From positions 1-25,707 of IMG/VR virus record IMGVR_UViG_3300020474_000097: a stretch of DNA of 25,707 nt. One strand, 5' to 3'. Of this stretch, positions 1 to 21,626 are shown piece by piece. A program made the translations under genes and the position numbers. This DNA comes from a virus. The notes below the pieces were generated by a model. It was not told where the DNA came from, ran no database searches, and saw nothing but the letters and a program-made list of their open reading frames with translations. Each line of letters starts with the position of its first letter. Within the stretch, counting starts at the first letter, position 1.

Positions 1-937
1 GAACATCGCCTTGGTCAAAAGTTAATGCGTGAGCAACACCAGCACCACCTCTTGATGTATCTTCAGCGATTGCAGCCGCCTCATCTTTATACATTGGTGA
101 AAAGAATCCACTATCGCCAGTAGAAGTAGTTCCTTTTACATAGTAAGGACCTCTAGGGTCTTCACCTAAACTTCTTCCAACATCACTAGAGTGGTGAATA
201 CCATCAGCAGTATATGAAAATCCTAATGGATAATATTTGTTATTATTATCGTGTTGATTGAAAGAATACTTATGGCCTTCTTTAAAGTTTTCCCAATTTC
301 TGTAACCAGCAAATTGTCTACCTTTAGTATTATTTCCTACTCTGTTATCTATTTTAAAATCTGGAACACCACCTGATACAGCAACTTGTACTATAAAAGA
401 TTGTTCTACAGGTCTGTAATGATATCTGAAATATGATTGTTCATACTTATTGTAAGTATCTTCAGAAGAATAATCATCTTCTGTTTCTGCAAACATACTA
501 TCGTATTCATCCATTAAGTGAGTTTGATGGCGAACAACACTACCTAATGTGGAATCAACTACATCGTGTTTAATTTGATGAGCACCGTCTTCGTTAGAAC
601 CGTATGTAGAATTGTGGGTGATAGGATTCCCGTCTTTATCAGTTCTTTGTCTTTCTGCTCTTCTTTCGTTTTCTGTCCAATATTGAGTATAATTAAATGC
701 GTCAGGACCAGAGTAATTAGGGTCATTTGACCAGAAGTCTCCAGTTCTGTCTTTGGGATTGTATCCCATAATTTTACTTCCTGGAGCGTATGCACTAGTC
801 CCGTCAGGAAGATACTCATTCGTCATAATCCACATTGCGTTATTGTGGTATACTATGTCGTCTCTTCTGTAGACTTGACTTTTGTCAAACTCTCCTTGGA
901 ATTGTAGTTTAATTCTTCCGAGATTTATTTTTGCCAT
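1..937 (-). CDS. Tail-fibre-like protein, N-terminal part (runs off the window)
   Basis: An open frame begins at an ATG at 937 and runs 312 codons without a stop to the window edge, so the C-terminus is missing. A purine-rich RBS (AGGAAA) lies a few bases upstream, and a late-promoter-like AATAAATA lies 22 nt upstream. The protein opens MAKINLGRIKLQFQGEF, then a region with the pattern VYRRDDIVYHNN. This matches the opening module of the next two upstream genes (GR-hydrophobic-FxG...YxxDDVV), which looks like a CBM5/12-type carbohydrate-binding fold. The remainder is hydrophilic and rich in Tyr, Asp and Asn, as in phage fibre and adhesin proteins. It is the last of three consecutive paralogous fibre-type genes. 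The fibre role is inferred from shared module and location; I do not recognise the central domain. Confidence 0.8.
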   Translation of the reverse strand, partial: MAKINLGRIKLQFQGEFDKSQVYRRDDIVYHNNAMWIMTNEYLPDGTSAYAPGSKIMGYNPKDRTGDFWSNDPNYSGPDAFNYTQYWTENERRAERQRTDKDGNPITHNSTYGSNEDGAHQIKHDVVDSTLGSVVRHQTHLMDEYDSMFAETEDDYSSEDTYNKYEQSYFRYHYRPVEQSFIVQVAVSGGVPDFKIDNRVGNNTKGRQFAGYRNWENFKEGHKYSFNQHDNNNKYYPLGFSYTADGIHHSSDVGRSLGEDPRGPYYVKGTTSTGDSGFFSPMYKDEAAAIAEDTSRGGAGVAHALTFDQGDV

Positions 938-959: not shown

Positions 960-967
960 TATTTATT
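960..967 (-). promoter_or_regulatory. T4-like late promoter candidate (AATAAATA)
   Basis: Reads AATAAATA on the minus strand, one base off the T4 late consensus TATAAATA. It sits 22 nt before the ATG at 937 and overlaps the stop codon of the preceding gene. Its position matches the other late-promoter candidates in this window. Confidence 0.5.
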
Positions 968-2489
968 AACCTAATACTGCTGGTTGTGGTGTTGAAACAT
1001 AGTTTCCGTCATTTTGACCTTGAATATAATCTCCCCCATAACCCCATATTAAATACCTGTTATCAAAAGTTTTTATTTCTCTAAAGTGGTATCTGTTACC
1101 ATCACTAGAGTAATATCCTCTTCCTTTTACACTTTCTACCTTGCCGTGAGCAAAATTAGGCATTCTTTGCATTTGGAAGTAATAATCATCTGTTTCTTCA
1201 ATTGCGTTAGTTGATTGTCTGTTTGTATAATCAGAAGACCAACCTTGAGCACCAAGTCCGTAATTGTTTCTACCTACATTGAACATAAATCCATCGTAAG
1301 TTAAAACCCATACATTACACATCCATTGGTTACCATATTCAGAGTTACATCCAATTTCTTTAATGTTACTTAAATCTGAAGTAGTTGTTCCATTAATTTG
1401 CCATTTAGGTGTAACAGGAGCAGATTGGTTAGTTGAGTTTCCAATACCAAGTTCATAGTTACCATTGTAACCACAACATCTAATTGAACCTGTACTATCT
1501 TTAGTCCAGAAACTCGCATATCTTCCATTACCTGTAAACCACATATTAGCACAATCTGAATATGTTCCAGAACCTGGACCACTAGACATAATTGTAAATG
1601 TACTTACATCTGTAGTATTTCCCATCATCGCCCAACCATATTCATTTCTACCTGTCCAATATATCTTACCTTTTTCAGTAAGAATAGCACATCTTTGATA
1701 TGATTGTTGACTATCTACTAATAATTTTTTAATCTTACCAGCATTTGCTGAACCGTTGTCAAAAGTAACACCAGTTATTTCAGTTGGTACTGATAAGTTA
1801 GTTGTGTTATTGTGTCCTAGAACACCATAACCATTGTATCCCCAAGAGTATAATTTTCCAGCAGTATCTAGTGCGAAACAGAAAGCGTAACCAGCACCAG
1901 CAGTCCAGAAAGCAACAATTTTATTTCCATTGAAATAAGTTGATTTATTAATCTTTGTAGGTCTACTTAAATCAGTTGTATTATTTTGTCCTAATTGACC
2001 GTAACCATTGTAACCCCAAGCCCATAGTTCGCCGTCAGTATCTAACGCATAACAACTATGTGTACTTGTATTATTATCACCACCCCAATTAGTTAAGTAA
2101 ATTCTTTTAATTCTTGTATCTTTAAATGTGTGAGTTGAAGTATTTGCAGCCAAATAAACTTCTTGATAAGTTCCACCACATCTTGCAGGATAACCTCTGT
2201 TTGAAGTAGCAGCGTCACCATTTTGTCCGTGACCACCATAACCCCAATGGTAAACTTCTCCATTGTTGAATAGTGCCATACCACTTTCATATCCAGAAAT
2301 TAATTGTATTGCCTTTGGTACTTCTCCATCAGGAGTTGTATGAATACCAGAACCACCATTGTCTCCACTTCTGTACCAGTCTAGGAATGGGAATACCATA
2401 CCAACACCAGTTAGAATTGAACCTTGGTTTAATCCGTTTTGTCCATTTGAGTTTGAACCCCAAGAAGTTATTGAACCTCTACCATTAAT
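966..2489 (-). repeat. RCC1-like repeat region (eight motif copies in protein)
   Basis: This span encodes residues about 566-1072 of the fibre protein. The repeat core is (G)-x-hydrophobic-x-x-W/T-G-Y/R-N-x-Y-G-x-x-G, seen at about residues 570, 642, 717, 776, 838, 899, 964 and 1042. Copies three and four are the most alike (GYNGYGQLGQNNTTDLS against GYNGYGVLGHNNTTNLS). The others are degenerate, so the DNA repeat is weak. Confidence 0.7.
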
Positions 2490-4184
2490 GAAACAAGGCC
2501 AGTTGTAACATTGTGATTGTTGGAATTGACCAGGTAATCTGTAATACTTGTTGTCATCTCCAATTGGACCTTCTTCATTTGATAAAGCCATACATTCTAA
2601 TCTGTTTCCAGAAAATTTGTTTTGATATCCTCTTGCCTTCTTTTGAGTTGAAACAACATCAAAAGTTACATTCGCAGAAGAATAGAATACTTGACCATCT
2701 ACTCTTAATTGGTCAGAAGCGGCATTGTTTTCACCACCTAATGTTTCAGCATTGTCATCATTGCCCCAACGAGACCTTTGATATCCTTTTTTCTCATCTT
2801 TCGCAAGAGTTAAATTAACTTGACCCCAAGTACCAATTGAGTTAATTGTCATTGATACATCTGGAGCACCTCCACTACCGAATAGTGAATCCCCGAAAGT
2901 TAATACTTCGTTAACAGCATATCCAAGACCACCTTGTTGACCACCTAATGATTTAGGAGTAATTGTTGCAGTAACATTACCTTCTTGGTCTACTTCAAAG
3001 TCCCAATATGAGTTAGAACCAGCACCAGAAGTAGAAGTGTGAGTTACATTTAAGTATCTACCTTTCTTTCTCTTGTAATGGCCTTTAGTTGTAATTGTAA
3101 AAGTTTTTGCAGATTGGTAACCATCAATAGTTACATCAAACATAGGTGGATTACATCCGCCTGTTCTTCCTGCGCCAGAGTTTTCAGCGTCAGCAGTTAC
3201 ATTGACACAATTTACAAATTTATAAGTTCCTGCCTGTCTACTAGGTGAAGCGGCAGATACATTGTTAATTGCAGTAACAGCACCACTATCAGTTATAATT
3301 TCATCATCAAAAGTATCTTCTTCTGAAACTCTTTCCCAATATTTGTTAGCGGCAGTATCTTTTTCTTGTTCCCAAGGTAAGTATTTGTCTGTACCATCTG
3401 TAGTATGTTGTTTAATACAGATATAAGTTGCTCTTACTCTGTTAATTTGGTCACCAGAGTACTGGTTATTTGTAGAGAAGTCATTATCTAATGATACATT
3501 TACTCTTACAATATCATTTGGATAATATGTGTTGTATGAACCACTTGCATTTGTATTGTCGTGATTACCTCTCCACTTGAACGATTGTCTAATTGATTTC
3601 CAAGTATTTTGTTTGGCAACAACTATTTTTGGTCCCCAACTAGCAGATGGATTGTCATATGAAAACATATAAATTTCATCTGGTGTATCGTTTGTAAATT
3701 CTATTCTTATTTCTCTTGAAGAAGCATTGTTGAAACTTGAAGTATTAAAATATTCTCCAGTTGTAGTTCCAGCACCAACTGACTTTCCGTCTAGGAAGTA
3801 AGTTACATCTTCGTGTAATAGATTAGTCTCTTTAGAAGAAGAAGTTGTGGCAAAGGCAACCTTATTGTCATCAAAATCATTTCCGTCTTGGTAAAGTACT
3901 AATGTATCTCCAACCTTAAATTGTTTCTCGGCAGCAGGCCAAGCAGCCTCAGCGTCCCACCTGTATGCGTCACCGCCAGTAGAAGCAGAAGTTTCTTTAG
4001 TTAATCTTATATAGTGTCTTTCGTTGTCTAATGGAGAAGTTCCTGTAACCGATGAATTCTTAACACAAATATAATCTGTGTTATTGTACATAACGACATC
4101 ATCTTTAAAATATGTCTTTGTACTTGAATATTCACCTTGATAGTTAAAAAACAGGTTTCCAATTCTAGTTTTTGTTGTTGCCAT
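966..4184 (-). CDS. Giant tail-fibre/adhesin protein with C-terminal RCC1-type beta-propeller
   Basis: The protein has 1072 residues. Residues 1-45 form the shared fibre N-terminal module (GNLFFNYQGEY...TYFKDDVVMYNN). The middle (about 50-560) is a long Gly/Thr/Asn-rich region with further YxxND(I/V)V and YICIKQHT stretches like the module's second half. From about residue 566 to the end there are eight copies of an RCC1-type motif, for example ELWAWGYNGYGQLGQNN and KLYSWGYNGYGVLGHNN, spaced roughly 50-75 residues apart, followed by DLSRPTKI-like strands. RCC1 repeats fold into a seven-bladed propeller; eight motif copies may mean one blade is closed by both ends or an eighth blade. In a phage fibre, a propeller at the distal end suggests a receptor-binding tip. 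ATG at 4184 has RBS AGGAAG and a late-promoter-like site. Domain calls come from motif recognition; receptor binding is inferred. Confidence 0.85.
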   Translation of the reverse strand: MATTKTRIGNLFFNYQGEYSSTKTYFKDDVVMYNNTDYICVKNSSVTGTSPLDNERHYIRLTKETSASTGGDAYRWDAEAAWPAAEKQFKVGDTLVLYQDGNDFDDNKVAFATTSSSKETNLLHEDVTYFLDGKSVGAGTTTGEYFNTSSFNNASSREIRIEFTNDTPDEIYMFSYDNPSASWGPKIVVAKQNTWKSIRQSFKWRGNHDNTNASGSYNTYYPNDIVRVNVSLDNDFSTNNQYSGDQINRVRATYICIKQHTTDGTDKYLPWEQEKDTAANKYWERVSEEDTFDDEIITDSGAVTAINNVSAASPSRQAGTYKFVNCVNVTADAENSGAGRTGGCNPPMFDVTIDGYQSAKTFTITTKGHYKRKKGRYLNVTHTSTSGAGSNSYWDFEVDQEGNVTATITPKSLGGQQGGLGYAVNEVLTFGDSLFGSGGAPDVSMTINSIGTWGQVNLTLAKDEKKGYQRSRWGNDDNAETLGGENNAASDQLRVDGQVFYSSANVTFDVVSTQKKARGYQNKFSGNRLECMALSNEEGPIGDDNKYYRLPGQFQQSQCYNWPCFINGRGSITSWGSNSNGQNGLNQGSILTGVGMVFPFLDWYRSGDNGGSGIHTTPDGEVPKAIQLISGYESGMALFNNGEVYHWGYGGHGQNGDAATSNRGYPARCGGTYQEVYLAANTSTHTFKDTRIKRIYLTNWGGDNNTSTHSCYALDTDGELWAWGYNGYGQLGQNNTTDLSRPTKINKSTYFNGNKIVAFWTAGAGYAFCFALDTAGKLYSWGYNGYGVLGHNNTTNLSVPTEITGVTFDNGSANAGKIKKLLVDSQQSYQRCAILTEKGKIYWTGRNEYGWAMMGNTTDVSTFTIMSSGPGSGTYSDCANMWFTGNGRYASFWTKDSTGSIRCCGYNGNYELGIGNSTNQSAPVTPKWQINGTTTSDLSNIKEIGCNSEYGNQWMCNVWVLTYDGFMFNVGRNNYGLGAQGWSSDYTNRQSTNAIEETDDYYFQMQRMPNFAHGKVESVKGRGYYSSDGNRYHFREIKTFDNRYLIWGYGGDYIQGQNDGNYVSTPQPAVLG

Positions 4185-4208: not shown

Positions 4209-4216
4209 TATTTATG
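4209..4216 (-). promoter_or_regulatory. T4-like late promoter candidate (CATAAATA)
   Basis: Reads CATAAATA on the minus strand, 24 nt before the ATG at 4184, with an AGGAAG RBS between. One mismatch to TATAAATA. It overlaps the end of the upstream gene. Confidence 0.45.
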
Positions 4217-7200
4217 TTGTTTCTATTACCAAGTCCCCAGCCTTATCAATGTTTATTTGCATTGAGCCGTTGATAATTTCAAAGCCTTCAGCGGAATCTG
4301 TCCCGTCAAAGAAAGCACTTTCTTTTTGTATTAATTCACTTGCGTTAGTAATTACTCTTCTCTTTAATGATAAATCTACATCATCAATAGATAAAGTCTG
4401 TAAAGTTGGAGTACCTTGTGCGTCAACATATGATTTATTAACTATATCGTTGGCCGCAGTAGGAGTTATTCCAATTTGCGTTTGAGCGCCAAAAGTAACA
4501 ATACCGTTATTTTGTGTACCAATTGATAAGTTTACATCTGTTCCACTTACTCCAGTTGTAGACATTGCAGTTCCAGTAATTGTTACTGAACCAGCAGTTA
4601 ATGAGTTAACTGACAAGTCATTTTGACCACCACCAAGTTGACCATCAACATATGTCTTAATTGCCCTTTCAGTTACAAGAGCGGTATCAGAGTTATCTGC
4701 CAATGTACCATCTGTACTGAATTCATTAATCGTTGCACCAAAATTACCTTGAGCATTTGAACCCAATGATAATTCTTGTAGACCAGAAAGGTCAAATGCC
4801 TCGGCGTTCAATGTCGCCTTACCAGTTGCCTGTTCTACTTTAAATAAGTTACCAACTCTAAAGTTACCATCTTGGTCAGTAGATGAGTAGAATACTCTTC
4901 CTCTATCTGCCTCAAAGACTTCATCGTTAGGGTCAGCAGCCTGTGATGGTGTGTTAGGATAATTTGTTGTTGAGAAACCACCTGTACCAACTGATAAGAA
5001 ATCGTGACCAGTCAATCTAATGTTTGAGTAGTTACTTCTTAAAGTTGCAGTTTCAGAGTGTGTAGGTTTATTAGAAGTTGTAAATTTAGGGTTAACTCTA
5101 ACAAGACCAGCACCACTTGAATAACCTGTTACTGATACAACATAGTAAGCCTGTCCAGTTATTCCAGCAAACTCAACTATGTCACCACCTGTAGGTGATT
5201 TAGATAATCCAGTTAATCTGACAAACGCAGTTCCAGCACTTGATATTTCAGCATAACCATCACCAGTTATCGTTGCAGTAGTTGTTTCTGTTTTATATCC
5301 AGAACCAGCACTTGATACCGTTGTTTGTGAGATAACACCATTACCAATATATGAAGTTGCAGTAGCAACCGTACTTGCGTTAGGGTCAGTAATTGTTACG
5401 GTTGGTGCAGAAGAATATCCTGCCCCACCATCTAATATAAGAATTTTTGAAACTTGTTGATTTTCTACAACTGCTCTTGCGAGTGCGTCTCTTGTAGGAG
5501 AACCACCACCAGATAATACTACTCTAGGTTCAATTTCATATCCTGAAGTTGTATCAAAAGAAGAAGCGGAAGATAAACCAGAGTTTACGAATACATCAAA
5601 TCCAGCAGTACCGTTTTCTTTTTGTATCGTACAAGTTTTTGTTGAAGCAACATAGTCTGCGATAACACCTGTGTTACCATAACCTGTTCCAGTATAAACC
5701 GTAATTCTCATTCCGTTATAGAAATCGTCTGGTTGTGTATCAGAAGCGGCAAGTTTAATTGTACTTGCAGTTCCAGATTGTGCAAATCCTGTTGTAGTAA
5801 AGTGAGTAGCACCATTTGTTGCCATTTCAATATACTTAACAGCACCGTTTGCAATATTAGCAGTAGCGCCACCAGAGGCACCAGAACCTGCAAGTGAGAT
5901 TGTAGCAGAAGAATAACTTTCTCCAGCGTATTGTAATTCTAATCTACCAATACCTGAACCAGATACTAATACTCTTCCAACTTGAGCCTCATTATTTCTT
6001 AAATCAACATTACCAGTATATGGAGTTTCGTTTGCGTCAATACCAGCGGCAGTTGAACCATACTCTCCATATGAGTTGTTTGAATTTAGTGAACGAATAA
6101 CACCACCACTATCTGCAAGATATCCGTGGTGTGCGTAATATGTGAATACTGATACTAATTCTGATTTTGCGTTTGCAAGTACCCATACACCTACTCCACC
6201 AGAAGTAATTTGTGTAAAGTCATTTGCAAGTATAGAACGGTTACCAGCGTTATGTAAAGCACCATCAATCTTAATACCTACTGAACCTGTTCCAAAGTGT
6301 GAGCAGTTTTGAATGAATGGTGATTTAGATGTAATATGAGTTGAAGTATCGCCAACACCAGTTCCTGGGTCTAATGCAAATACAACACCACTTCTAGTAG
6401 CACCGTCAGTAGTAGTAGGTCTTGCGACACCGTTTGCGTCAGCAGTAGTCATAGTTCCTAACATACCACTAAATGTAAATCCAGCGAATGTAACACCATT
6501 TCTAACTCTGAACATATCTGCTCTTGCGTTAGGTGTGTTAGTTAATCCAGTAGCAGTAGAATTTCCTGAAGCAGGTACAACTCTAGTACTTCTTAAACCA
6601 TCACCAATAACCTGTGTGTTTGCACCAACCACGATAGGTAGTGCCTCTGAATATTCACCAGTTTTTACATATAAAGTTTTGTTTGTTGTAGCGGTAACAT
6701 TAGCATTCATCCAAGTCATTGCGTAAGCAATTGTTAACCAAGGTTTGTCTAATGAAGTTCCTCTACCTGTATCAGTTGAAGGGTCTGTATCAGCACCGTG
6801 TTTAGCAACATAGTAAACATTTGCTGATGTTCCTGGAACTGCCCAAGAAATATCAGTACCATCTGATACTAAAGTTGAACCAGTTGTTCCAATACCTAAT
6901 CTAATATTTTGTGTAGCGTTTCTAGTTAATAGGTCACCTCTTGTAGTAGTTACATAGTTACTATCACCTTCTGCAAGTAAATTCCAATATGTTCCACCAC
7001 TATCGTTATCTGGTCTGTTTGCAGTTGCAGCCGTATGAGCAGAAACAGCAATATAAGAAGATGAACCATATACAACACCATCGCCAGGTGCATATTCAGT
7101 TGTACTTGCCCAAGTGTTTCTCCAAGTTAAACCTTCGTTTAGTTTATCCCAAGTTGCAGTTGTTGTTGGTACAATACCAGTTGCGTCTGTTTTTGCAACA

Positions 7201-7913
7201 TATGTATGACCACCATATCTAACTACATCACCAGTTTTGTATGCAGTACCACCAGCATATGTTCCAACCATTTTGAAACCAGTTGTTAAAACTTTCCAAT
7301 ATGTGGCGTTGTTGTAAGGTGTTTGACCTGTTGATTGTTGTTCGGCAAGATAATTATATCCACCATATGTAACAATGTCTCCAGCCTGATAGGCAGTAGC
7401 AGAGTTATAAGAATCCTCAAACTCTAGTCCAGAAACAAATACATTAAATTTTGAAGTATCTATAGTAGAAGCACTTGTATGTTCTACGGTACAGATATAA
7501 ACATTGGCACCATATTTCGCAAGGTCATTAACTTTATATGCTGTGGCAGCCGCATATGTACCAGTCCAATTAAACCCTGGAACGAATGATGTCCATTTTG
7601 AATTGTCGTCATATAAATCTGATTGTGAAGTGTGAGCAGTATTACAAACATATGTTGAACCACCCCATTGGACTACATCGTCTACTTTGTAAACGGTAGT
7701 TGCCGCCCAAGCACCTTTCCATTCTTGCCCTGCCGCCATCTTTTTCCATTTGACTGACGCCAAGTCTGTTGCAAAAGTTCCACCTGTGTGGTTAACCATT
7801 GCGACAAAAGTATTTCCACCGTGTCGGACTACATCGTCTTTAATATAGACGGTTGTTGTTGCCCAATCCCCTTTGAAGTGGAATTTAAGTCTTCCTAAAA
7901 TAAAATCTGCCAT
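4212..7913 (-). CDS. Giant tail-fibre protein: six CBM5/12-like modules plus beta-helix-like region
   Basis: The protein has 1233 residues. Residues about 8-316 hold six tandem modules of roughly 50 residues with the pattern W/Y-x4-T-x-Y-x-x-x-D-V-V-x-Y-G-G-x-x-Y-V-C/A...HT...W, typical of CBM5/12-like carbohydrate-binding modules. At about 365-490 comes NVYYVAKHGADTD...KPWLTIAYAM, then VKTGEYSEALPIVV and NTQVIGDG. This is the start of a right-handed beta-helix (pectate-lyase-like) region seen in marine T4-like phage structural proteins. The C-terminal third contains VFYSSTDQDGNFRVGN, VTERAIKTYVDGQLGG and DIVNKSYVDAQ, motifs common at the ends of phage fibre proteins. A GAGAGAG RBS precedes the ATG. 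Binding of host surface glycans is inferred from the modules; no catalytic residues are claimed. Confidence 0.85.
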   Translation of the reverse strand: MADFILGRLKFHFKGDWATTTVYIKDDVVRHGGNTFVAMVNHTGGTFATDLASVKWKKMAAGQEWKGAWAATTVYKVDDVVQWGGSTYVCNTAHTSQSDLYDDNSKWTSFVPGFNWTGTYAAATAYKVNDLAKYGANVYICTVEHTSASTIDTSKFNVFVSGLEFEDSYNSATAYQAGDIVTYGGYNYLAEQQSTGQTPYNNATYWKVLTTGFKMVGTYAGGTAYKTGDVVRYGGHTYVAKTDATGIVPTTTATWDKLNEGLTWRNTWASTTEYAPGDGVVYGSSSYIAVSAHTAATANRPDNDSGGTYWNLLAEGDSNYVTTTRGDLLTRNATQNIRLGIGTTGSTLVSDGTDISWAVPGTSANVYYVAKHGADTDPSTDTGRGTSLDKPWLTIAYAMTWMNANVTATTNKTLYVKTGEYSEALPIVVGANTQVIGDGLRSTRVVPASGNSTATGLTNTPNARADMFRVRNGVTFAGFTFSGMLGTMTTADANGVARPTTTDGATRSGVVFALDPGTGVGDTSTHITSKSPFIQNCSHFGTGSVGIKIDGALHNAGNRSILANDFTQITSGGVGVWVLANAKSELVSVFTYYAHHGYLADSGGVIRSLNSNNSYGEYGSTAAGIDANETPYTGNVDLRNNEAQVGRVLVSGSGIGRLELQYAGESYSSATISLAGSGASGGATANIANGAVKYIEMATNGATHFTTTGFAQSGTASTIKLAASDTQPDDFYNGMRITVYTGTGYGNTGVIADYVASTKTCTIQKENGTAGFDVFVNSGLSSASSFDTTSGYEIEPRVVLSGGGSPTRDALARAVVENQQVSKILILDGGAGYSSAPTVTITDPNASTVATATSYIGNGVISQTTVSSAGSGYKTETTTATITGDGYAEISSAGTAFVRLTGLSKSPTGGDIVEFAGITGQAYYVVSVTGYSSGAGLVRVNPKFTTSNKPTHSETATLRSNYSNIRLTGHDFLSVGTGGFSTTNYPNTPSQAADPNDEVFEADRGRVFYSSTDQDGNFRVGNLFKVEQATGKATLNAEAFDLSGLQELSLGSNAQGNFGATINEFSTDGTLADNSDTALVTERAIKTYVDGQLGGGQNDLSVNSLTAGSVTITGTAMSTTGVSGTDVNLSIGTQNNGIVTFGAQTQIGITPTAANDIVNKSYVDAQGTPTLQTLSIDDVDLSLKRRVITNASELIQKESAFFDGTDSAEGFEIINGSMQINIDKAGDLVIETT
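6966..7892 (-). repeat. Six tandem carbohydrate-binding-like modules (protein-level repeat)
   Basis: Encodes residues about 8-316. The six units start near residues 11, 64, 114, 163, 213 and 262. Each carries a Y-x-x-x/x-D-x-V/A core followed by a (Y/H/W)-G-G-like turn, an aromatic strand and a closing W/F. They are clearly diverged at DNA level, so this is an old duplication or domain shuffling rather than a recent tandem repeat. Confidence 0.75.
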
Positions 7914-12295: not shown

Positions 12296-13052
12296 AACTT
12301 ATATACTCCAAATTCTTGCAATCATTCCATTCAGGAATATTGACATTTAACATATTCTTTCTATTCACTTTATAAAACTTAATATGATGATACCACTTAA
12401 ATAACTTCTTCCATTGATATATCCATTGTTGAATATAATAGTTAGACGGATGAGTATCAGATTTATAATAAGGTTGACCAGCATAGATGTTATTAAATTT
12501 ATTATCCATACTATACAAGTCGTGACCTATTAGATAAATTTCTTTCATTTCGTCTATCGTATTACAAGCAACATAACCACTCATAGGTCCTGCCGACCAA
12601 TGTTCTTGTTCAGGTTCTCTTATTAAATCTGTAATATTCAAAACCTTATCACTTGTTACCCAAGATACAGATACTAAATTTTCATTTGTTTGTTTATCGT
12701 TGTATCCGTGTAATACAAATTCTTTTGCACCTTGTCTGCCGTTCTCAATTAGTTTACCTGATTGTCGTATTGCTCTTAAATGTCTATATTCAGGAAACAT
12801 ACTTAATATCAATTGTTCAAAATTCTCACCAGGTATAGTAGACCAACTTCTGAAATAACATCTTGCATTATAACAATAACCACTTTGATATATGTTGTGC
12901 ATAATAGGGTGGTCAATTGCAACTAATACATCTGGTGCAAAATCTTTATATAAATTATTGCAACCTAATATTGAACCTCTAGGTTTTAACTTACTTAAAT
13001 TAAAACCTCTTCTACTTTTTCCGTTACCAATACAAAATGCTCTATTTGCCAT
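12258..13052 (-). CDS. DUF115/MptE-like (6-hydroxymethylpterin pyrophosphokinase/MAF-like) protein
   Basis: The protein has 264 residues. The N-terminus has a nucleotide-binding-like signature, FCIGNGKSRRGFNL at residues 6-19, then SILGCNNLYKDFAPDVLVAID at about 28-47. This arrangement (GNGxS, GxN, PD-hydrophobic-xxxD) is typical of the DUF115/MptE-like superfamily, which includes MAF-type flagellin glycosylation proteins and archaeal 6-hydroxymethylpterin diphosphokinase. Later, IYLIGHDLYSMDNKFNNIYAG resembles the second conserved G-x-D block. In phages such proteins are usually of unknown role; glycan or pterin/nucleotide transfer are possible. It overlaps the radical SAM gene at 13042 by 11 nt. 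The RBS is weak, so coupling probably sets its level. Confidence 0.6.
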   Translation of the reverse strand: MANRAFCIGNGKSRRGFNLSKLKPRGSILGCNNLYKDFAPDVLVAIDHPIMHNIYQSGYCYNARCYFRSWSTIPGENFEQLILSMFPEYRHLRAIRQSGKLIENGRQGAKEFVLHGYNDKQTNENLVSVSWVTSDKVLNITDLIREPEQEHWSAGPMSGYVACNTIDEMKEIYLIGHDLYSMDNKFNNIYAGQPYYKSDTHPSNYYIQQWIYQWKKLFKWYHHIKFYKVNRKNMLNVNIPEWNDCKNLEYISYERMESQTRNLP

Positions 13053-13995
13053 ATCTCATTTTAAAAGTATCTAACAGATACCTATACCCATTGCAGCCGT
13101 CAGTTAAATCTTTTACATATCTGTAATGTTCAGTTAAACACTTACCTAGGTATTCACACTTACGACATATATCAGATATATTCTTTTCTTTTTCTTTTTG
13201 ACACCATACTTCATAATCTGCGAAACTATCTAACTCTAAAAAGAATTCTTTATCGTCTTCATCAAAATCTAATACAGCAAGTTTACCATTTGGCGTAATA
13301 TATAAATGGTCATCGCTGTATGCGTTGTTTTGTCCGTTTAGACTTTCTTTAATTAAGTCTCTATTTACAAATTGATAGTCACCTCGTTTAGTTGCGTCTT
13401 CATCTTGTAGTAGTTTTAAAATATAATCTTCATATTCTGAATCCTTTACTTTAAGGTCATTTGCTTGATTACTACTATATGGTTTTATCTCAACACTTTG
13501 CATATGACTATTCTCAAATTTTATTCTATTCATCATAGTCCAAAAGTGTTCACCACTATGTGCCATTACTTCTCTAGTTGCAAGACATAGTACTGAAAAG
13601 TCTACAGGCAACTTTGCCATATTCTCTCTTACTAAACGATAATCTTGTCTAGTAGTTAAATCCCAAGATACACTTAAATAATATTCAGGATTAAAAAACT
13701 CTTCTCTTAATACAGATAAATTTGTGTTTATGTTTATCTTATCTTTGTAATAAAATTTTATTGTATTAGTTATTGCTTGTAATTTGTCTTTCTTTAATAT
13801 ACCTATCTCACCACCATACAAATCAATATGATTTATTTCTCTATGTGTAGCAACTTCAGCCAATAAGTCATTTAGTCTTATATGGTCTATAGTTTTTGTA
13901 TCACCTAGTTGTTCAGGTGTAAGGTAACACCAATGACATCTAAAGTTACAATGATACGATGGATTAATTGATAGGTTAATCTTCGGCAGCGTCAT
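13042..13995 (-). CDS. Radical SAM enzyme with reduced SPASM-like C-terminus
   Basis: The ATG at 13995 gives 317 residues. An in-frame TTG lies at 14010, but the ATG is preferred because GAGG is nine bases before it. C16-x3-C20-x2-C23 (CNFRCHWC) is the canonical [4Fe-4S] radical SAM motif. LYGGEIG at about 59-65 is the SAM-binding GGE block, and TNLS at 91-94 and SVSWDLTTR are shared with the other three radical SAM proteins here. The C-terminus has C277-x2-C280-x5-C286 and C301, a cut-down SPASM/twitch auxiliary cluster: the first part of the domain and the Cys after C286 are missing. SPASM enzymes usually modify peptides; the target here is unknown. It overlaps the upstream gene by 20 nt. 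Confidence 0.85.
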   Translation of the reverse strand: MTLPKINLSINPSYHCNFRCHWCYLTPEQLGDTKTIDHIRLNDLLAEVATHREINHIDLYGGEIGILKKDKLQAITNTIKFYYKDKININTNLSVLREEFFNPEYYLSVSWDLTTRQDYRLVRENMAKLPVDFSVLCLATREVMAHSGEHFWTMMNRIKFENSHMQSVEIKPYSSNQANDLKVKDSEYEDYILKLLQDEDATKRGDYQFVNRDLIKESLNGQNNAYSDDHLYITPNGKLAVLDFDEDDKEFFLELDSFADYEVWCQKEKEKNISDICRKCEYLGKCLTEHYRYVKDLTDGCNGYRYLLDTFKMRYGK

Positions 13996-14545
13996 AATCA
14001 AATTCCTCAATACTTTTTAGTAACATCTTCTTACATCTATTAAACATTATTCTTCTTACAAAATTTTGTTTCCAATTTCTATCATCTTTAAATAATCCTA
14101 TCCAGAGATAAGTATACTCTTGATGATTTCTCATAAACAATCTATTTAATTCAGCATACTCTTGTTCTTTTTCTAAACTATAATTAACTCTTATATCACC
14201 TTTTACATTTGCTTGTTGTTCAGCAATCTTATAATGTATACCAGGTATTTTACTTGTCTTATTAATTATATCATTTATTCTATCTAATCTATTTTTACCA
14301 CCAATTGCAATCATAATATAAAATGGCATATAATGTTTCTTTGTGAAATGTCCTTCACAACTTGATATAGGTAAAAAACCTTTTCTTATAAATTCGTGGC
14401 AATGAGATAATACGCCTTTCTCAACTTCTTTATCAAAATTTTTATCAAACGGACTTACTGATAATGCAAGGTACCCATTTGAGTAATCTAAATCTTGTTC
14501 TTCAGAGGCGTGTATTCTGCCATTTGGAAATAACTTATTTTTCAT
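13976..14545 (-). CDS. Hypothetical protein with SSCEGHF motif (weak TYW3 resemblance)
   Basis: The protein has 189 residues. The notable stretch is GFLPISSCEGHFTKKHYMPFYIMIAIGG at about 55-82, followed by NRLDRINDIINKTSK and later YTYLWIGLFKDDRNWKQNFVRR. The SSCxG-type motif followed by a beta strand faintly recalls TYW3-like tRNA wybutosine methyltransferases, but the match is short and I would not assign that function. It is soluble, with no signal or membrane segment. The ATG overlaps the stop of the oxygenase-like gene (ATGA), and its own end overlaps the radical SAM start by 20 nt. Such overlaps place it firmly in the maturation cassette and suggest it is made in step with both enzymes. 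Confidence 0.6.
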   Translation of the reverse strand: MKNKLFPNGRIHASEEQDLDYSNGYLALSVSPFDKNFDKEVEKGVLSHCHEFIRKGFLPISSCEGHFTKKHYMPFYIMIAIGGKNRLDRINDIINKTSKIPGIHYKIAEQQANVKGDIRVNYSLEKEQEYAELNRLFMRNHQEYTYLWIGLFKDDRNWKQNFVRRIMFNRCKKMLLKSIEEFDYDAAED

Positions 14546-15078
14546 ATATTAAAATCAAAACATCCTACTATTCGTTCATCTGAAAATACACCTGTTTTTT
14601 CGTCTAGTGTTCTTTCAAATTCTTCAACTTTATGTTCCCAGACTTTGTTGTGATTTAAAATAACTAAATCTGCTTTCGCTGGGTATATCATACAACTCAA
14701 ACTTTTTGTTTCTGCATTTCGTACTTTCAAACAACCACCTGTAGTTGGATTACTTGCACTTGTAAAATACATTAATATAGCAACATTTGCTCCTTCTTTC
14801 AAATCATTATGCCAATTAGTAGATGGTGCGTCAACACCATTAACTATTTCTGGTTGTCCATACAAACTATATTTGTTAGACAGCAGTTTAATATATTTAT
14901 CACCCAAATAATTATGGCATATTTTGATTGCGTTGTCTAGTTGTGGAGTATGTACAGCAACTCCATATTCACCTACATTTCTAAAAGGTATTTCTATACC
15001 TTCAAAAAATGCAAACGGCACTCTATCGTTGTGTGGAAATACACCGTTAACTAAAACATTTTCTATATGTTTTACCAA
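14542..15078 (-). CDS. Fe(II)/2-oxoglutarate-dependent oxygenase-like protein (TTG start)
   Basis: The protein has 178 residues. Residues 89-92 (WHND) give the HxD iron ligands H90 and D92. The strand AILMYFT and TTGGCLKVR follow, and then ADLVILNHNKVWEHKV supplies the distal histidine H149. R169 in DERIVGCFDFNI is well placed to bind the 2-oxoglutarate carboxylate. This is the double-stranded beta-helix order of prolyl-4-hydroxylase-like phage oxygenases. These hydroxylate protein side chains or small molecules; the substrate here is unknown. The start is TTG at 15078 with GAGGAGG four bases before it, overlapping the radical SAM stop by 7 nt. No close in-frame ATG exists. Confidence 0.75.
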   Translation of the reverse strand: MVKHIENVLVNGVFPHNDRVPFAFFEGIEIPFRNVGEYGVAVHTPQLDNAIKICHNYLGDKYIKLLSNKYSLYGQPEIVNGVDAPSTNWHNDLKEGANVAILMYFTSASNPTTGGCLKVRNAETKSLSCMIYPAKADLVILNHNKVWEHKVEEFERTLDEKTGVFSDERIVGCFDFNI

Positions 15079-16166
15079 GTTGCCTCCTCATTTACATATG
15101 GCGTCATCTGTAAATCACTTTTATTTGCTCTTAAAATATATTTACCTATAGTCTTCATCTTCTCACAATGTTTTTCTACAACTCCTGCCTCTTTATAATC
15201 TTTAATAGTCTTTCTACAACCATTACATATATTAAACATAGGGCAAGTATAACAACCCTTTTTCATTGTACTTAATTTTATGTCGTCTTGTAAGGGAGTA
15301 AAAAACTTACCTGACATTTCTTCTTTAAAATCTATTGCCTTATCTTTATCATCACCAAAAGCACCACAACTATAATAGTCACCATCGGGTTGTAGACATC
15401 TGATACCTTCATCACATTTTCTACTTAAAGGACAAGTTGTAGCACGGTCACCTATTGCTAACATCATTTGTCTAGTATTAAATTCCCAAGGTGCTAAACC
15501 TTTGTTATATATTTCTACATAATAAGAATATATATCCGATAACAAAAACGGCTCTTCCTGTTCGCCACTCATCATCGCATAATTTAGTTTACATTCTACA
15601 CCTGTTTTTTCTTGTCGCCAGAAGTTATGAAGAGTACCTTGTGGTTGTACATCTTCTGACATATACTTTGCCAACTCTACATTTTTAATTGCGTTGTGTT
15701 CATTCTCTCTTGTAATAACAGATATAAAATCTGGTCTATAATTACAATACTCTAACATTGCATTTGAACACTTCCAAAAGTCTTCTTCTGTAAACTCTGT
15801 ATAATCGCCTTTTAATCTACCACCACCATATTGAAATGAAGTAGTAACACCTACTCTATCATTATTAAATAAGTCAACCCATAGACTAGGTTTCTTATAG
15901 AACGGCCATAAGTTTGTTGTTAATGCAAGTGAAGTAGAATAATCTCTCTCGTCTAACCATTTTATAATCTTCCAATAATAATCAGGTGCCATCATCAATG
16001 GGTCACCACCATTTACGATGATAGTTTTAGTTTCAGGAAATCTAGTTAGAAACTCAAATATCTGGTCGTGTTTTAACCAATTCTTTTTTTCATTTGTTAA
16101 TTGTGTGCTAGAACAAAAAGTACATTTGAAATTACATAATTCAGTTGGTTTTATTATTAAGTCCAT
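15072..16166 (-). CDS. Radical SAM/SPASM enzyme
   Basis: The protein has 364 residues. C11-x3-C15-x2-C18 (CNFKCTFC) binds the radical SAM cluster, and IIVNGGDP (49-56) is the SAM-binding GGE-type block with Asp in place of Glu. TNLW at 84-87 and TTSFQYGGGR at 108-117 correspond to the TNL and TS(W/Y)D..R motifs of the sister enzymes. The C-terminus carries nine cysteines: C245, C251, C257, C267, C305, C308, C314, C317 and C334. This includes CYTCPMFNICNGC, a full SPASM arrangement able to hold two auxiliary clusters. Such enzymes mostly modify peptides. RBS AAGG precedes the ATG, and the gene is coupled downstream to the oxygenase by a 7-nt overlap. Confidence 0.9.
   Translation of the reverse strand: MDLIIKPTELCNFKCTFCSSTQLTNEKKNWLKHDQIFEFLTRFPETKTIIVNGGDPLMMAPDYYWKIIKWLDERDYSTSLALTTNLWPFYKKPSLWVDLFNNDRVGVTTSFQYGGGRLKGDYTEFTEEDFWKCSNAMLEYCNYRPDFISVITRENEHNAIKNVELAKYMSEDVQPQGTLHNFWRQEKTGVECKLNYAMMSGEQEEPFLLSDIYSYYVEIYNKGLAPWEFNTRQMMLAIGDRATTCPLSRKCDEGIRCLQPDGDYYSCGAFGDDKDKAIDFKEEMSGKFFTPLQDDIKLSTMKKGCYTCPMFNICNGCRKTIKDYKEAGVVEKHCEKMKTIGKYILRANKSDLQMTPYVNEEATW
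15076..15089 (-). promoter_or_regulatory. Strong RBS that supports a TTG start
   Basis: The minus strand reads GAGGAGG-CAAC-TTG, with the ribosome site inside the last codons of the upstream radical SAM gene. It is the main reason for accepting TTG as the start of the oxygenase-like gene. Confidence 0.6.
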
Positions 16167-16266: not shown

Positions 16267-16831
16267 TTCTTACCCAATAATTATCCTGTTTCTTAAAACC
16301 ATATCTTCTCATATTCTTATAGTGGTAAGGTTGTCTTTGTATTTTCATTTGGTTCATTGTTAAATGAATATGCTCTAAATAAGAACCTGAAGGAATTATC
16401 ATCTTACGATTGCCATATAAATTTACTAGTGTAGAATATATATTTTCAAGAAATGATAAGACTTCTTTCCAAGGTTTTCTATTCATATATCCTGCATACT
16501 TAATACAACTAACAATCACTTCATTATCATATGTGTGTACCATTGCAAGACCTTTTATTAATTTTTTATTATCGTTTAAAGTTAACCATTGTTCTTCGTC
16601 TTTACTATTAATAGCGTCTTCGTAAATCTCTGGGTCAGTATCTTTTGTACCCCACCATACTAATACTATTCCTTGTTTGTTACACAATCTAGGTAGATAA
16701 GGATATTTTGTTGGTATGTTATCTAATACAACATCAACATTATCAGGTGTATTGATTTTAGGTAGCGATATAGTTTCGCTGTAGTCGTACATCTTCAATA
16801 TATCTGTGCGTAAGTTTGTAGACACACTCAT
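16250..16831 (-). CDS. Hypothetical protein, possibly N-acetyltransferase-like
   Basis: The protein has 193 residues. It contains IVLVWWGTKDTDPEIYEDAIN, then KKLIKGLAMVHTYDNEVIVSCIKYAGYMN, a hydrophobic-strand alternation, and VNLYGNRKMIIPSGSYLEHIH. The C-terminus is strongly basic (NMRRYGFKKQDNYWVRNG). The ending YGFKKQDNYWVR is the kind seen at the end of GNAT-like acetyltransferase folds ('GFkk....y'), but I see no clear Q/R-x-x-G-x-A acetyl-CoA loop, so I leave the function open. The start at 16831 has a near-perfect AAGGAGGAG Shine-Dalgarno site and lies 74 nt inside the upstream radical SAM gene; an in-frame ATG at 16792 has no such site. Confidence 0.55.
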   Translation of the reverse strand: MSVSTNLRTDILKMYDYSETISLPKINTPDNVDVVLDNIPTKYPYLPRLCNKQGIVLVWWGTKDTDPEIYEDAINSKDEEQWLTLNDNKKLIKGLAMVHTYDNEVIVSCIKYAGYMNRKPWKEVLSFLENIYSTLVNLYGNRKMIIPSGSYLEHIHLTMNQMKIQRQPYHYKNMRRYGFKKQDNYWVRNGTEI

Positions 16832-17810
16832 TCAACTCCTCCTTATATCTATAATCGTGGTTCATAAAACAACCAAGTGTACATCTATCTAAAAATTCAC
16901 AACTAGCACAATTATACTTTTCTAAAAAAGAATTTTCTATTATACTATTGTCTTTTCTTTTGATTGGAGATTTATATTGACTTAATGATTTTTCACTCTG
17001 TACTAAATTTCCACATTGACATAATGTACCATCTGCTAATATTAATTTAGAAACTCTGCAACTTGCAAAATTCTTTTTGTTGAATATCCAATCTCTAACA
17101 GGATGAACATTTGGATATTTGTCAACACAATGTTTAAAAAACTTTAATAGTAATTCATCACTAGGCATATTAAACTTTGCGTGTTCGTCTGGCATATAAT
17201 AATCAAAGTAAATATACTTACCTTGTTTATACAGATAGTCAAAGTATTCATCGCCTTCATTTAAATAATAATTGATATTAGGTTTTGTCAATAGACAAGA
17301 AAAACAAGTTACTTCGTCTCCCCAATATTCTACATTTGATTTAAATATTTCAAAGTCTTTTTTATTAAATCTACCTCTAGGGTCATAACTTGTAGTAAGT
17401 CTTGTTTCTATACCTTCTTCTCTTGACCAAGATATTAAATCTCTTATTAACTCATTACCATCTTCTGTAGTAACTAAATTAGATACCCAATTCATTACAC
17501 ATTTCTTATCGTAATGGTCGCATATTTTTTGTATGCCTTTTACAAATAGTTTGTAACCCTCGTTTAAGTTTCTATTATAAATTGCAGGTGCAAAAACTTC
17601 GCCACCCATTATGTTAAAGGTAACTTTTTGCATTAATTCTTTTGATATAAACTTCTCTACTGACGGAAGTTTATTCATTACATTGTCAATGCCAATTGTG
17701 TCTTCGTGATTTTGCCAGCAGAAAGCACACCTTAAATTACAAAATTCAAATAGATGAATTGTGTACTCTTGTTCGGGGTCTCTTTTGGGGTCTAATAAGA
17801 ACTCTCGCAT
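16758..17810 (-). CDS. Radical SAM/SPASM enzyme
   Basis: The protein has 350 residues. C24-x3-C28-x2-C31 (CNLRCAFC) is the radical SAM motif, and NIMGGEV at 66-72 contains GGE. SNLVT at 110-114 and TTSYDPRGR at 139-147 are the shared family motifs. The C-terminal domain has C251, then C264 and C266 (LCQCG), C301-x2-C304-x5-C310-x3-C314, and C329. This is a SPASM-type set of ligands, with LILADGTLCQCGNL resembling the start of the domain in peptide-modifying enzymes. The substrate is unknown. The gene lies 8 nt after an unrecognised 372-residue gene, and its last 74 nt also encode the start of the next protein. Confidence 0.9.
   Translation of the reverse strand: MREFLLDPKRDPEQEYTIHLFEFCNLRCAFCWQNHEDTIGIDNVMNKLPSVEKFISKELMQKVTFNIMGGEVFAPAIYNRNLNEGYKLFVKGIQKICDHYDKKCVMNWVSNLVTTEDGNELIRDLISWSREEGIETRLTTSYDPRGRFNKKDFEIFKSNVEYWGDEVTCFSCLLTKPNINYYLNEGDEYFDYLYKQGKYIYFDYYMPDEHAKFNMPSDELLLKFFKHCVDKYPNVHPVRDWIFNKKNFASCRVSKLILADGTLCQCGNLVQSEKSLSQYKSPIKRKDNSIIENSFLEKYNCASCEFLDRCTLGCFMNHDYRYKEELNECVYKLTHRYIEDVRLQRNYIAT
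16836..16844 (-). promoter_or_regulatory. Strong Shine-Dalgarno site deciding an overlapping start
   Basis: AAGGAGGAG on the minus strand, four bases before the ATG at 16831. It is one of the best RBS matches in the window and lies within the upstream radical SAM gene, supporting a genuine 74-nt out-of-frame overlap. Confidence 0.65.
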
Positions 17811-19613: not shown

Positions 19614-19807
19614 TATGCTTCCATTCCTCCTTTAGGTAAACAATTATAATCAATTGTTTTCCAAGGACCATCTGCTGGTATAGATAAGATTTCTTCTTTT
19701 AATTCTATACAAGCATTTTTTGTTTTAAATTCTTTTACTTCTTGAAAATGACAAGAACTATCATTCATACAAGCAGTTAATATCAAAGTCCATATTACTT
19801 CAATCAT
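19613..19807 (-). CDS. Small Cys-containing protein with lipobox-like N-terminus
   Basis: The protein has 64 residues. MIEVIWTLILTACMNDSSC begins with a short hydrophobic stretch ending in LTAC, which fits a lipoprotein lipobox with C13 as the lipidated residue. The N-terminus lacks the usual positive charge. Further cysteines are C19, C33 and C56, giving possible disulphides if exported. The body reads FQEVKEFKTKNACIELKEEIL, a helix, then DGPWKTIDYNC. I recall small proteins of this layout (hydrophobic start, a few cysteines, 'W..i.Y.C.P' end) near tail genes of marine T4-like phages, without known function. It overlaps both neighbours by one base (TAATG), directly after the Cys-His-x-Ser-tailed protein. 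Confidence 0.65.
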   Translation of the reverse strand: MIEVIWTLILTACMNDSSCHFQEVKEFKTKNACIELKEEILSIPADGPWKTIDYNCLPKGGMEA

Positions 19808-20580
19808 TATCTTCTTCCTCTACTACCGTGGCAAGAACTATGACAAGAACTATGACATATAGTTTTTGCAAGTCCATAAGTGCTTCCTCTTTCAGTATTA
19901 TATGCGTTTGCAAGGTCAGCAATAAATGTTTCTAAATTTGCAGAAGTTATAAGTCGTCCAGAGTTTAGATATGATGGTTGACTAGGATTTAGTGTTACTC
20001 TTACTGAAGTTAAATTGTGAGCAATTTGTGTGTCTGAATATTGTTGTCCTGCACCAGTCATTGTAACAGACGCAGTTGTATTTTTAATATTAGTGTAAGT
20101 ATTCATTTCATTTTTTAATGTTTGATAAATGTTACCTGCATTAATGGTTGTGCCAGAGTTACCTATTTGAGTTCCTGTAATACCAATAGTAACTGCTGAT
20201 ATGGTAGTCATTGTACTGATTGTACCTTGAGCACCTGAATTTGAACCTGTTAGAATATCGTTTTGTAAAAAATTTGTTTGACCTGAACCTGCAACTATAT
20301 TTCTGACTTTTAAATTGTTACTTGAATATGTAACTACGGTACCTACCGTTCCTGATATAGAACCTGTTACCGTTTCGTTTGCAGTAAATGTACCAGTGGC
20401 GTTAGTTAAAACTAATTCCATTCCGTCTACTACACCTCCAAAGTCAGCACTTGAAAATGCAGAGTGACCAGGTAGATTATCTGTACCCCAAACTATTTGG
20501 GTATCTGCAATATCTGTTACTAACTCTTCAAATCTATCTACTATATTTTGACTTGTTATCGGGTCGTTTAATGTTACCAT
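19807..20580 (-). CDS. Virion-type protein with C-terminal Cys-His-x-Ser repeat; candidate radical SAM substrate
   Basis: The protein has 257 residues. Residues 1-55 are a mixed helical start (LNDPITSQNIVDRFEELVTD). Residues about 57-155 hold two Gly/Thr/Ser/Asn-rich beta modules of the kind 'F..NE/DxxTGSxSGxxGT', typical of phage fibre or decoration proteins. A helical part (NLETFIADLANAYNTERGS) leads to the last 16 residues, CHSSCHSSCHGSRGRR. The protein's only three cysteines (242, 246, 250) are there, spaced every four residues and each followed by His and, two on, Ser. ATG at 20580 overlaps by 7 nt the stop of a canonical radical SAM/SPASM gene. A peptide-modification substrate is inferred; metal binding by the tail is the main alternative. 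Confidence 0.8.
   Translation of the reverse strand: MVTLNDPITSQNIVDRFEELVTDIADTQIVWGTDNLPGHSAFSSADFGGVVDGMELVLTNATGTFTANETVTGSISGTVGTVVTYSSNNLKVRNIVAGSGQTNFLQNDILTGSNSGAQGTISTMTTISAVTIGITGTQIGNSGTTINAGNIYQTLKNEMNTYTNIKNTTASVTMTGAGQQYSDTQIAHNLTSVRVTLNPSQPSYLNSGRLITSANLETFIADLANAYNTERGSTYGLAKTICHSSCHSSCHGSRGRR
19810..19857 (-). repeat. Coding repeat for the Cys-His-x-Ser tail
   Basis: Two exact copies of a 12-base unit (TGTCATAGTTCT on the minus strand) followed by a third, diverged unit (TGCCACGGTAGT), then an Arg-Gly-Arg-Arg end. The near-identical first two units suggest recent unit duplication; the third differs at most codons while keeping Cys, His and Ser. Confidence 0.85.
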
Positions 20581-21626
20581 CTTGCTTCATTCCTCTGTGC
20601 CAATTGTTTCATAAGAGATTTAGGGGCACCACATATACCATTTTGCCATTCTAGTTGGTGACAATCGCCACCACAATACTTAAATACTTCACAATCAAAA
20701 CATTCAGTATTTCTTGCAACTTCACAAGCAATATTGTTTAATCTCTTAGGATTATTTATAAGGTCTACCATAGGGTCATCCAGAGAACCGAAATTAAACT
20801 CGGGACTTGCGTTAGGACAACCACCTATAGTACCAGTTGCGTTTAAAGTAAACAATTTCTGCTCACAATCTCTACAAAAAGTACCTTGTTTAGTATTACC
20901 AGTTTCAAATTTAGAATATATTGTCTCTAAAAACTCATTATCAAACCACTCTCTAGTCTTATATTGTATAGATTGTTCGTGCATTTTTAGAAACCATTTA
21001 TCTTGTTCTATATTTGATGGAAATATCTCTGGGTGTAAATTTGCATTACCATTTCCAGTCAATCTTTCTAATGCCATTTCTTGTACGCCTAAATCTTTTA
21101 CCCATTTCAATAATTCAATAGGTTCAATATTTACGGTGTCTTTAGTTACGGATATGAAAAGTTTTATATCAATACCTTCAGATATTAAAGTCTCAACATT
21201 ACTTCTCCATAAGTTTGATTGTTTTTCGTTTGCAAAACGAATATTCGGGTCCCAAGAAGTACCACATCTACCACCAAGAGGACCTTTCATAAAATCTATG
21301 TGTTCTTGTTTTAATTTAAAAACTAAATTAGTTGTAACACCAAATGATTGATGTTCCCATAAGTCTTTTGTTCTATCATAAACATATTGCATTTCAGATA
21401 CAGGTACTAAAAAAGGTTCACCACCGTGAAACTCTAAATGAGCAATATCGTTTTTATGAAAATTGTATTTTCTGAAGTTTTGTAACCATCGTACTACTTT
21501 GTCAGTATTCCAATATACTTTAGGTCCTTTACTACCTGAAGTGAAACAATGTTTACAATTTAGATTACAGGTTTCGGTTGTTTTTAAATAAAACATCCAA
21601 TTCATAGGCGCATAATTTAGCGTCAT
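20574..21626 (-). CDS. Radical SAM/SPASM peptide-maturase-like enzyme (canonical, anSME-like)
   Basis: From ATG at 21626 the protein has 350 residues. An upstream in-frame TTG exists at 21653, but the ATG has GGAG about eight bases before it and forms a TAATG junction with the previous stop. C20-x3-C24-x2-C27 (CNLNCKHC) is the radical SAM motif; FHGGEP at 66-71 is the GGEP block; TSWDPNIR carries the family motif. The SPASM domain is complete: C251, C254, C270, C301, then C309-x2-C312-x5-C318-x3-C322 and C332, with the NATGTIGGCP strand between. This layout matches anaerobic sulfatase-maturating and RiPP-modifying enzymes. The next gene, overlapping by 7 nt, encodes the Cys-His-x-Ser-tailed protein. 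Confidence 0.92.
   Translation of the reverse strand: MTLNYAPMNWMFYLKTTETCNLNCKHCFTSGSKGPKVYWNTDKVVRWLQNFRKYNFHKNDIAHLEFHGGEPFLVPVSEMQYVYDRTKDLWEHQSFGVTTNLVFKLKQEHIDFMKGPLGGRCGTSWDPNIRFANEKQSNLWRSNVETLISEGIDIKLFISVTKDTVNIEPIELLKWVKDLGVQEMALERLTGNGNANLHPEIFPSNIEQDKWFLKMHEQSIQYKTREWFDNEFLETIYSKFETGNTKQGTFCRDCEQKLFTLNATGTIGGCPNASPEFNFGSLDDPMVDLINNPKRLNNIACEVARNTECFDCEVFKYCGGDCHQLEWQNGICGAPKSLMKQLAQRNEARW
20753..20760 (-). promoter_or_regulatory. Possible internal late promoter (TATAAATA)
   Basis: A perfect TATAAATA on the minus strand inside the radical SAM gene (codons for D-L-I-N-N-P), 172 nt before the start of the Cys-His-x-Ser-tailed gene. The other candidates lie within 24 nt of a start, so this may be chance. 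If real, it would raise the level of the structural substrate above that of its enzyme. Confidence 0.25.

Follow-up and report, generated by a model that had tools for sequence, protein, structure and literature searches.

A putative tail fibre of a T4-like marine phage ends in a predicted RCC1-type propeller that probably serves as a host-recognition head

Both RCC1 proteins of phages and propeller domains of phage adhesins are already known. Phage phAPEC6 is reported to encode eleven RCC1-like proteins, which were proposed to order DNA (PMC7247149). Three RCC1-like proteins of phage W70 (W70_237-239, 40-43 kDa, phrog_4219) were detected in the virion by mass spectrometry (PMC11370258), as was the RCC1-like GAP_001 of phage GAP32 (PMC5259590). 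Jumbo coliphage fEgEco12 has, among the proteins that set it apart most from its sister Ecwhy_1, two with the annotation chromosome condensation regulator (PMC13070987), a divergence that would fit adhesins. Propellers, in turn, have been described in established or putative phage receptor-binding proteins, namely phi11 Gp45, PRD1 P2 and phiKZ gp131C, as well as in endosialidases (PMC4901313). Our searches of open-licence PMC text turned up no paper describing a fibre tip made of an RCC1 propeller, and the portion of a catalogue of eCIS receptor-binding domains considered here mentions beta-propellers and not RCC1. The earlier note's remark that RCC1 propellers are mostly proteins of eukaryotes or bacterial cells is misleading, given at least 542 confirmed IMG/VR stretches and the virion RCC1 proteins of enterobacterial phages.

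The window, i.e., the whole stretch of viral DNA analysed (25,707 nucleotides), carries a gene, hereafter gene A, whose protein combines an RCC1-type domain with features of a fibre. The features of the locus are as follows.

966-4184, minus strand: gene A, a fibre protein of 1072 residues that ends in an RCC1-type propeller (open reading frame, Pfam, PHROG, PDB sequence matches, AlphaFold2)
969-2594, minus strand: predicted RCC1-type propeller, residues ~531-1072, with eight predicted blade units (AlphaFold2, repeat model, fold matches)
984-2522, minus strand: eight RCC1 repeat units, at 2418-2522, 2145-2294, 1902-2078, 1752-1892, 1575-1712, 1326-1532, 1131-1325 and 984-1112 (repeat model)
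2595-4049, minus strand: stalk region, residues 46-530, without known domain (Pfam, orthologue comparison)
4050-4184, minus strand: N-terminal module, residues 1-45, a probable attachment module
2-937, minus strand: first 312 residues of gene B, cut at the left edge of the window
4212-7913, minus strand: upstream tail fibre of 1233 residues with six CBM_5_12-like stretches (Pfam 1.7e-26; PHROG 9851 tail fiber protein, 1.5e-197)

The C-terminal half of the gene A protein matched the Pfam models WD40_RLD (2.1e-39), RCC1_2 (1.3e-16) and RCC1 (3.2e-15). Against curated Pfam cut-offs, PF13540 scored 60.3 bits (cut-off 22) and PF00415 scored 56.9 (cut-off 21.7); PF25390 scored 136.3 with the full protein, below its cut-off of 150, and 160.1 with the domain alone. 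Among PDB sequences searched with phmmer, UVR8 (1.9e-29) and HERC2 (1.8e-25) were matched, and the best PHROG was phrog_4219. Judged by these matches, gene A belongs to the RCC1 repeat/RCC1-like domain superfamily. A repeat-unit model, trained on the same RCC1 family, placed units at residues 555-589, 631-680, 703-761, 765-811, 825-870, 885-953, 954-1018 and 1025-1067, each with E <= 1.4e-7. The earlier note's count of eight RCC1-like motifs at the end of a 1072-residue protein is thus confirmed: the reading frame is open, the Pfam and PDB matches are far above chance and eight units were found. The C-terminal location of the domain stands as well, and its start, put by the note at residue 566, was somewhat late, the profile envelope beginning at residue 533 in the orthologues and the first repeat unit at 555. 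Across 58 family members the same model found eight units in 30, seven in 13 and fewer in 15, and in most members the propeller stops just a few residues short of the C-terminus.

AlphaFold2 prediction of residues 530-1072, with an alignment of 58 sequences from the window and IMG/VR as input, gave a nearly all-beta structure with a pLDDT of 88 and a pTM of 0.91. Strands 2-4 form eight sets in the model, with seven long first strands and a short one, so that the domain is predicted to be a ring of four-stranded blades of RCC1 type. Structure prediction and blade count, both proposed in the earlier note as checks, thus point to a complete propeller with eight strand sets rather than an unclosed one. 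Prediction of the full-length protein with 16 orthologues was of low confidence (pLDDT 36.7, pTM 0.30).

When the propeller model was compared by VIA-align with Foldseek's best PDB chains, a comparison in which absence of a fold does not amount to its exclusion, UVR8 (6dd7) ranked first with Z 25.7 and an rmsd of 3.9 over 357 aligned residues of the 368-residue chain, followed by HERC2 (Z 25.5), RCC1 (1a12; Z 19.5) and BLIP-II (Z 15.0). In BFVD, the fold matches were topped by I3ULP0 and A0A6G6XPH1, both nameless there. Solved RCC1-type relatives are seven-bladed. Different RCC1-type chains aligned from different positions of the model (93..543, 48..510 and 1..435), as is expected if any seven of eight blades fit a seven-bladed ring. 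With closure judged from the strand sets and the fold matches, the gene A propeller is probably eight-bladed, and its eight repeat units and eight predicted strand sets would set it apart from the canonical seven-bladed RCC1 propeller.

Gene A resembles UVR8, HERC1/2, RPGR, RCC1 and BLIP-II in both its repeats and its predicted fold (Z 25.7 to 15.0), but it lacks the Ran-exchange, chromatin or photoreceptor context of solved RCC1-type proteins, and neither Ran-GEF activity nor chromatin binding would be expected of a bacteriophage protein. With phi11 Gp45, PRD1 P2 and phiKZ gp131C it would share a propeller in an established or putative phage adhesin, which in phi11 is joined to a stem. The phi11 propeller, however, is described as central and followed by a C-terminal tower, whereas that of gene A is C-terminal, and the reported blade numbers are five for phi11 Gp45, five (distorted) for PRD1 P2 and seven for phiKZ gp131C, against the eight predicted here. 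W70_237-239, GAP32 GAP_001 and the proteins of cyanophage S-SRM01 are, like gene A, phage proteins with RCC1 repeats, those of W70 also sharing phrog_4219; unlike gene A, the W70 (40-43 kDa) and S-SRM01 proteins (344-405 residues) are reported at sizes that leave them without a long stalk. S-SRM01 is a cultured freshwater Synechococcus phage in which three stand-alone RCC1 genes adjoin a long-tail-fibre gene (locus L123, 6039-14466); RCC1 was not mentioned in the searched text of the paper on this phage.

The N-terminal module is common to genes A, B and C (gene C lying beyond the window, see below) and to the fibre gene at 4212-7913, which is assigned to a PHROG tail fiber family. BLAST identities of the module among family members were about 29-42% over 36-92 residues, and the module of gene A gave a weak CBM_5_12 match (0.035). 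It probably serves in attachment. Gene A lies in a tail/baseplate cluster, directly downstream of the tail-fibre gene in the window and in its relatives, and a stretch of the gene B stalk matched a PHROG tail fiber family (2.5e-10). The shared module and the synteny bear out the earlier description of gene A as encoding a fibre-type protein.

That description overlooked a second RCC1 fibre gene, whose first part occupies 2-937, and a third that relatives carry beyond the end of the window. In IMG/VR relatives, gene B is about 1361-1375 residues long with a C-terminal RCC1 domain (1370 residues in the full relative in L001) and is followed by a 129-residue gene and then by gene C, an RCC1 gene of 731 residues; gene A is the first of these three tandem RCC1 fibre genes. 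The conserved 129-residue gene (L021, 4995-5384, and its equivalents) had no PHROG match. Counted from the locus listing, 32 of the 57 loci L064-L120 have at least three RCC1 open reading frames, the remaining loci having ended early or coming from other phage types. Across the family the part N-terminal to the propeller spans about 160 to 870 residues while the propeller is constant, and in some other phages (e.g., L101, L103, L118 and L120) the RCC1 domain is joined to an unrelated N-terminus.

Cultured phages with the same arrangement were found among Pseudomonas phages. In the T7-like phages PollyC and SeaP1-4, the fibre in the gp17 slot starts with a T7 tail-fibre N-terminal domain and ends in an RCC1 domain. 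The N-terminal match was weak (E about 1e-4, just under the Pfam cut-off) in the four fibres scanned (PollyC, SeaP1, SeaP3 and SeaP4), and the SeaP2 fibre was assigned through its 81% identity to that of PollyC. The fibre gene follows immediately after those for the internal virion proteins and precedes the holin/terminase genes. Littlefix gp88, from a member of the Schitoviridae whose host strain is the same as that of PollyC, also ends in an RCC1 domain, with 35% identity to that of PollyC over 50% of the query. The RCC1-ended fibres of PollyC, SeaP and Littlefix go under several annotations (tail fiber assembly, tail protein, RCC1 domain protein, outer membrane protein), and we found no paper describing them in open-licence PMC text. 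Like gene A, they join a fibre N-terminus to a C-terminal RCC1 domain; they differ from it in being single genes with a highly variable propeller in T7-like phages and a schitovirus, whereas gene A belongs to a tandem array in a T4-like phage. The Pseudomonas propellers are no more than distant relatives of that of gene A and mostly have seven repeat units (seven by the repeat model in PollyC, SeaP3 and SeaP4). In SeaP1 (L130, 3001-5703) the propeller contains 111 bases (37 residues) repeated exactly in tandem, which is not the case in SeaP4; this may be either a very recent duplication of part of a blade or an assembly artefact.

Pairwise comparison of the five PollyC/SeaP isolates (10 pairs) showed TerL to be 99.5-100% identical and the 800 residues encoded upstream of the fibre 99.9-100% identical. 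Within the fibre, identity was 96.5-100% over residues 1-300, 51-92% over residues 301-420 and 33-91% over the RCC1 part. Other Pseudomonas phages match the PollyC-type fibre over its first ~128-145 residues only; among these, SeaD1 has a fibre that gave no RCC1 match. Divergence of the fibre end among otherwise near-identical isolates is what a receptor-binding tip would be expected to show and, by analogy, would be consistent with such a role for gene A. Residues 1-863 of the PollyC fibre are matched by phrog_4219, a family whose label reads "regulator of chromosome condensation; DNA, RNA and nucleotide metabolism". Since the family spans this protein almost end to end, at least one protein under that label is a tail fibre.

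With the tail-fibre gene at 4212-7913 as the anchor for synteny, the closest cultured syntenic phage found was Pelagibacter phage Mosig EXVC030M. The slot that corresponds to gene A lies in Mosig between the annotated tail fibre and the neck genes, and the protein encoded downstream of the 4212-7913 homologue has 516 residues and, instead of RCC1, a glycine-rich domain (Pfam, 4.4e-13) together with a putative Ig domain. Glycine-rich tips are adhesins in T-even phages. In the lineage of the window (24 of 37 loci examined), the gene after the upstream fibre carried RCC1 in 22 of 24; in the other two it was that gene again, with the contig ending ahead of its propeller. At Mosig-type loci (66 examined of the 80 found with the Mosig gene), the next open reading frame was glycine-rich in 42 of 66, another frame in 20 and lacking in four; an RCC1 gene was the next frame in 0 of 66. 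Replacement of an RCC1 gene by a glycine-rich, adhesin-like gene in the same slot suggests that this is a locus for host-recognition proteins. A tblastn search with the divergent relative L096 yielded no match among cultured phages.

Several other genes of the window and its relatives may be recorded here. Four radical SAM-like frames are present on the minus strand (13042-14010, 15072-16166, 16758-17810 and 20574-21653; Pfam Radical_SAM E 0.0077 to 1e-6, at or below the cut-off), and together with a 2OG-Fe(II) oxygenase-like frame (14542-15078, minus strand) and a cupin-like frame (21626-22105) they lie among tail-type genes. A 257-residue protein (19807-20580, minus strand), whose gene overlaps a radical SAM gene (phrog_1802, 4.8e-65), has the C-terminal Cys/His-rich repeat ICHSSCHSSCHGSRGRR; the final 25 residues are similar to the C-terminal end of phrog_35144 (2.1e-4). 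The whole resembles a virion-type protein that carries a peptide precursor's modified tail, and a tblastn search with 57 C-terminal residues gave no match among cultured phages. In IMG/VR relatives, putative heme oxygenase, bilin reductase and 5-aminolevulinate synthase genes were read by eye downstream of the RCC1 trio (L021, 8472-10343; L033, 11032-13569; L121, 23640-24876), and the Mosig annotation includes heme oxygenase and phycocyanobilin reductase. These heme/bilin genes may link the lineage of the window to phages treated in PMC11480375.

Within this lineage, the propeller is the better conserved part of gene A. Excepting the near-identical L001 and L014, orthologues are about 78-90% identical to the window over the propeller versus 65-71% over the stalk, and mean column conservation is 0.90 versus 0.80 (9 of 16 orthologues, near-identical rows dropped). 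In five deep comparisons with the window, dN/dS was 0.11-0.24 for the propeller versus 0.23-0.27 for the stalk; in two close pairs the corresponding values were 0.24 versus 0.18 (L004-L005) and 0.32 versus 0.33 (L018-L022). The earlier note had proposed a comparison for variation on one face of the propeller, and none was seen: loops of the two faces did not differ in variability (permutation p 0.73 with 7 orthologues and 0.67 with 21 A-type members). A simply hypervariable tip in the lineage of the window is rejected, the propeller being more conserved than the stalk. Divergence or exchange of the distal domain is observed in Pollyceevirus and in the slot replacement, and the opposite holds for the window lineage. 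The conservation would be accounted for either by a conserved receptor or by a structural role of the propeller.

Taken together, the fold and architecture of gene A are well supported by computation, and the function assigned to it rests on related phages and synteny. We consider it likely that gene A is a fibre whose RCC1-type, probably eight-bladed, domain recognises the host from the distal end, and that the phage has three such heads. Gene A would be a tail-fibre gene of a marine myovirus of T4-like type. In its product, the first ~45 residues probably provide the link to the baseplate or another fibre, the stalk would comprise residues ~46-530, and residues ~531-1072 would be a propeller at the distal end. 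Loops of one face or of the rim would touch a cell-surface receptor, as in other phage adhesins. The analysis shows RCC1 homology, the predicted fold and its C-terminal position, the shared N-terminal module, the tandem paralogues and the use of a slot that holds another adhesin-like gene in a relative; from these we infer a trimeric fibre, its distal head and the binding of a receptor, whichever that may be. As genes B and C carry homologous heads, the virion may display three related ones. The receptor-binding head proposed in the earlier note is thus retained as the best reading by analogy with the T7-like Pseudomonas phages and from the slot replacement in Pelagibacter phages, with the qualification that within the lineage of the window it is the stalk that varies more.

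The better conservation of the propeller speaks for a structural role, with the propeller acting as a rigid platform or docking piece in baseplate or fibre assembly and another protein contacting the receptor. The lack of a more variable face is likewise in its favour, and three paralogues kept together, with the 129-residue gene between B and C, could be one fixed assembly. Against this, the RCC1 part is precisely what diverges in the five near-identical Pseudomonas phages, the Mosig group has an adhesin-like gene in the slot, and the propeller mostly lies at the very C-terminus, so we regard a structural role as unlikely. A head that cleaves or modifies surface glycans has precedents in the propellers of phage tailspike enzymes, the K1F and phi92 endosialidases (PMC4901313), and the upstream fibre contains CBM_5_12-like stretches; the solved folds nearest to the gene A model among those listed (UVR8, HERC, RPGR, RCC1 and BLIP-II) are, however, binding or regulatory proteins, and an enzymatic head seems quite improbable. 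Least credible of all, and very improbable, is DNA condensation by an internal head protein, which was proposed in PMC7247149 and PMC11370258 and agrees with the PHROGs class and with the mass-spectrometric detection of the W70 and GAP32 proteins in virions, but which in the parts of those two papers considered here is argued from name or analogy rather than from tests, and which must contend with propellers fused to fibre N-termini inside a fibre cluster, with a phrog_4219 that covers a T7-type fibre almost end to end, and with the mildly acidic pI of the gene A propeller (5.9; pI > 8 in 4 of 58 family domains), although the domains of PollyC, SeaP4 and one of S-SRM01 are basic (pI 8.3-9.4).

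For gene A itself, we retain the host-recognition head as the likely reading. A broader proposal is possible, though we would stop short of calling it probable: that phage proteins filed under "regulator of chromosome condensation" or "DNA condensation" are largely widespread, exchangeable host-recognition propellers of fibres, and that a T4-like lineage carries three tandem fibres with paralogous eight-bladed propellers, an extended version of the fold, giving three different heads per virion. The apparent gain of a repeat in SeaP1 and the apparently one blade more of the marine propellers relative to solved RCC1 structures raise the prospect that the family could vary its heads by repeat number. 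Since cultured Pseudomonas phages are near-identical in the genes compared and differ in the RCC1 domain, the idea is directly testable. RCC1 phage proteins of phrog_4219, now classed with DNA metabolism, gain a testable function, and, should RCC1 propellers prove to be receptor-binding heads, predictions of host range would gain a class of adhesins that is at present hidden by annotation.
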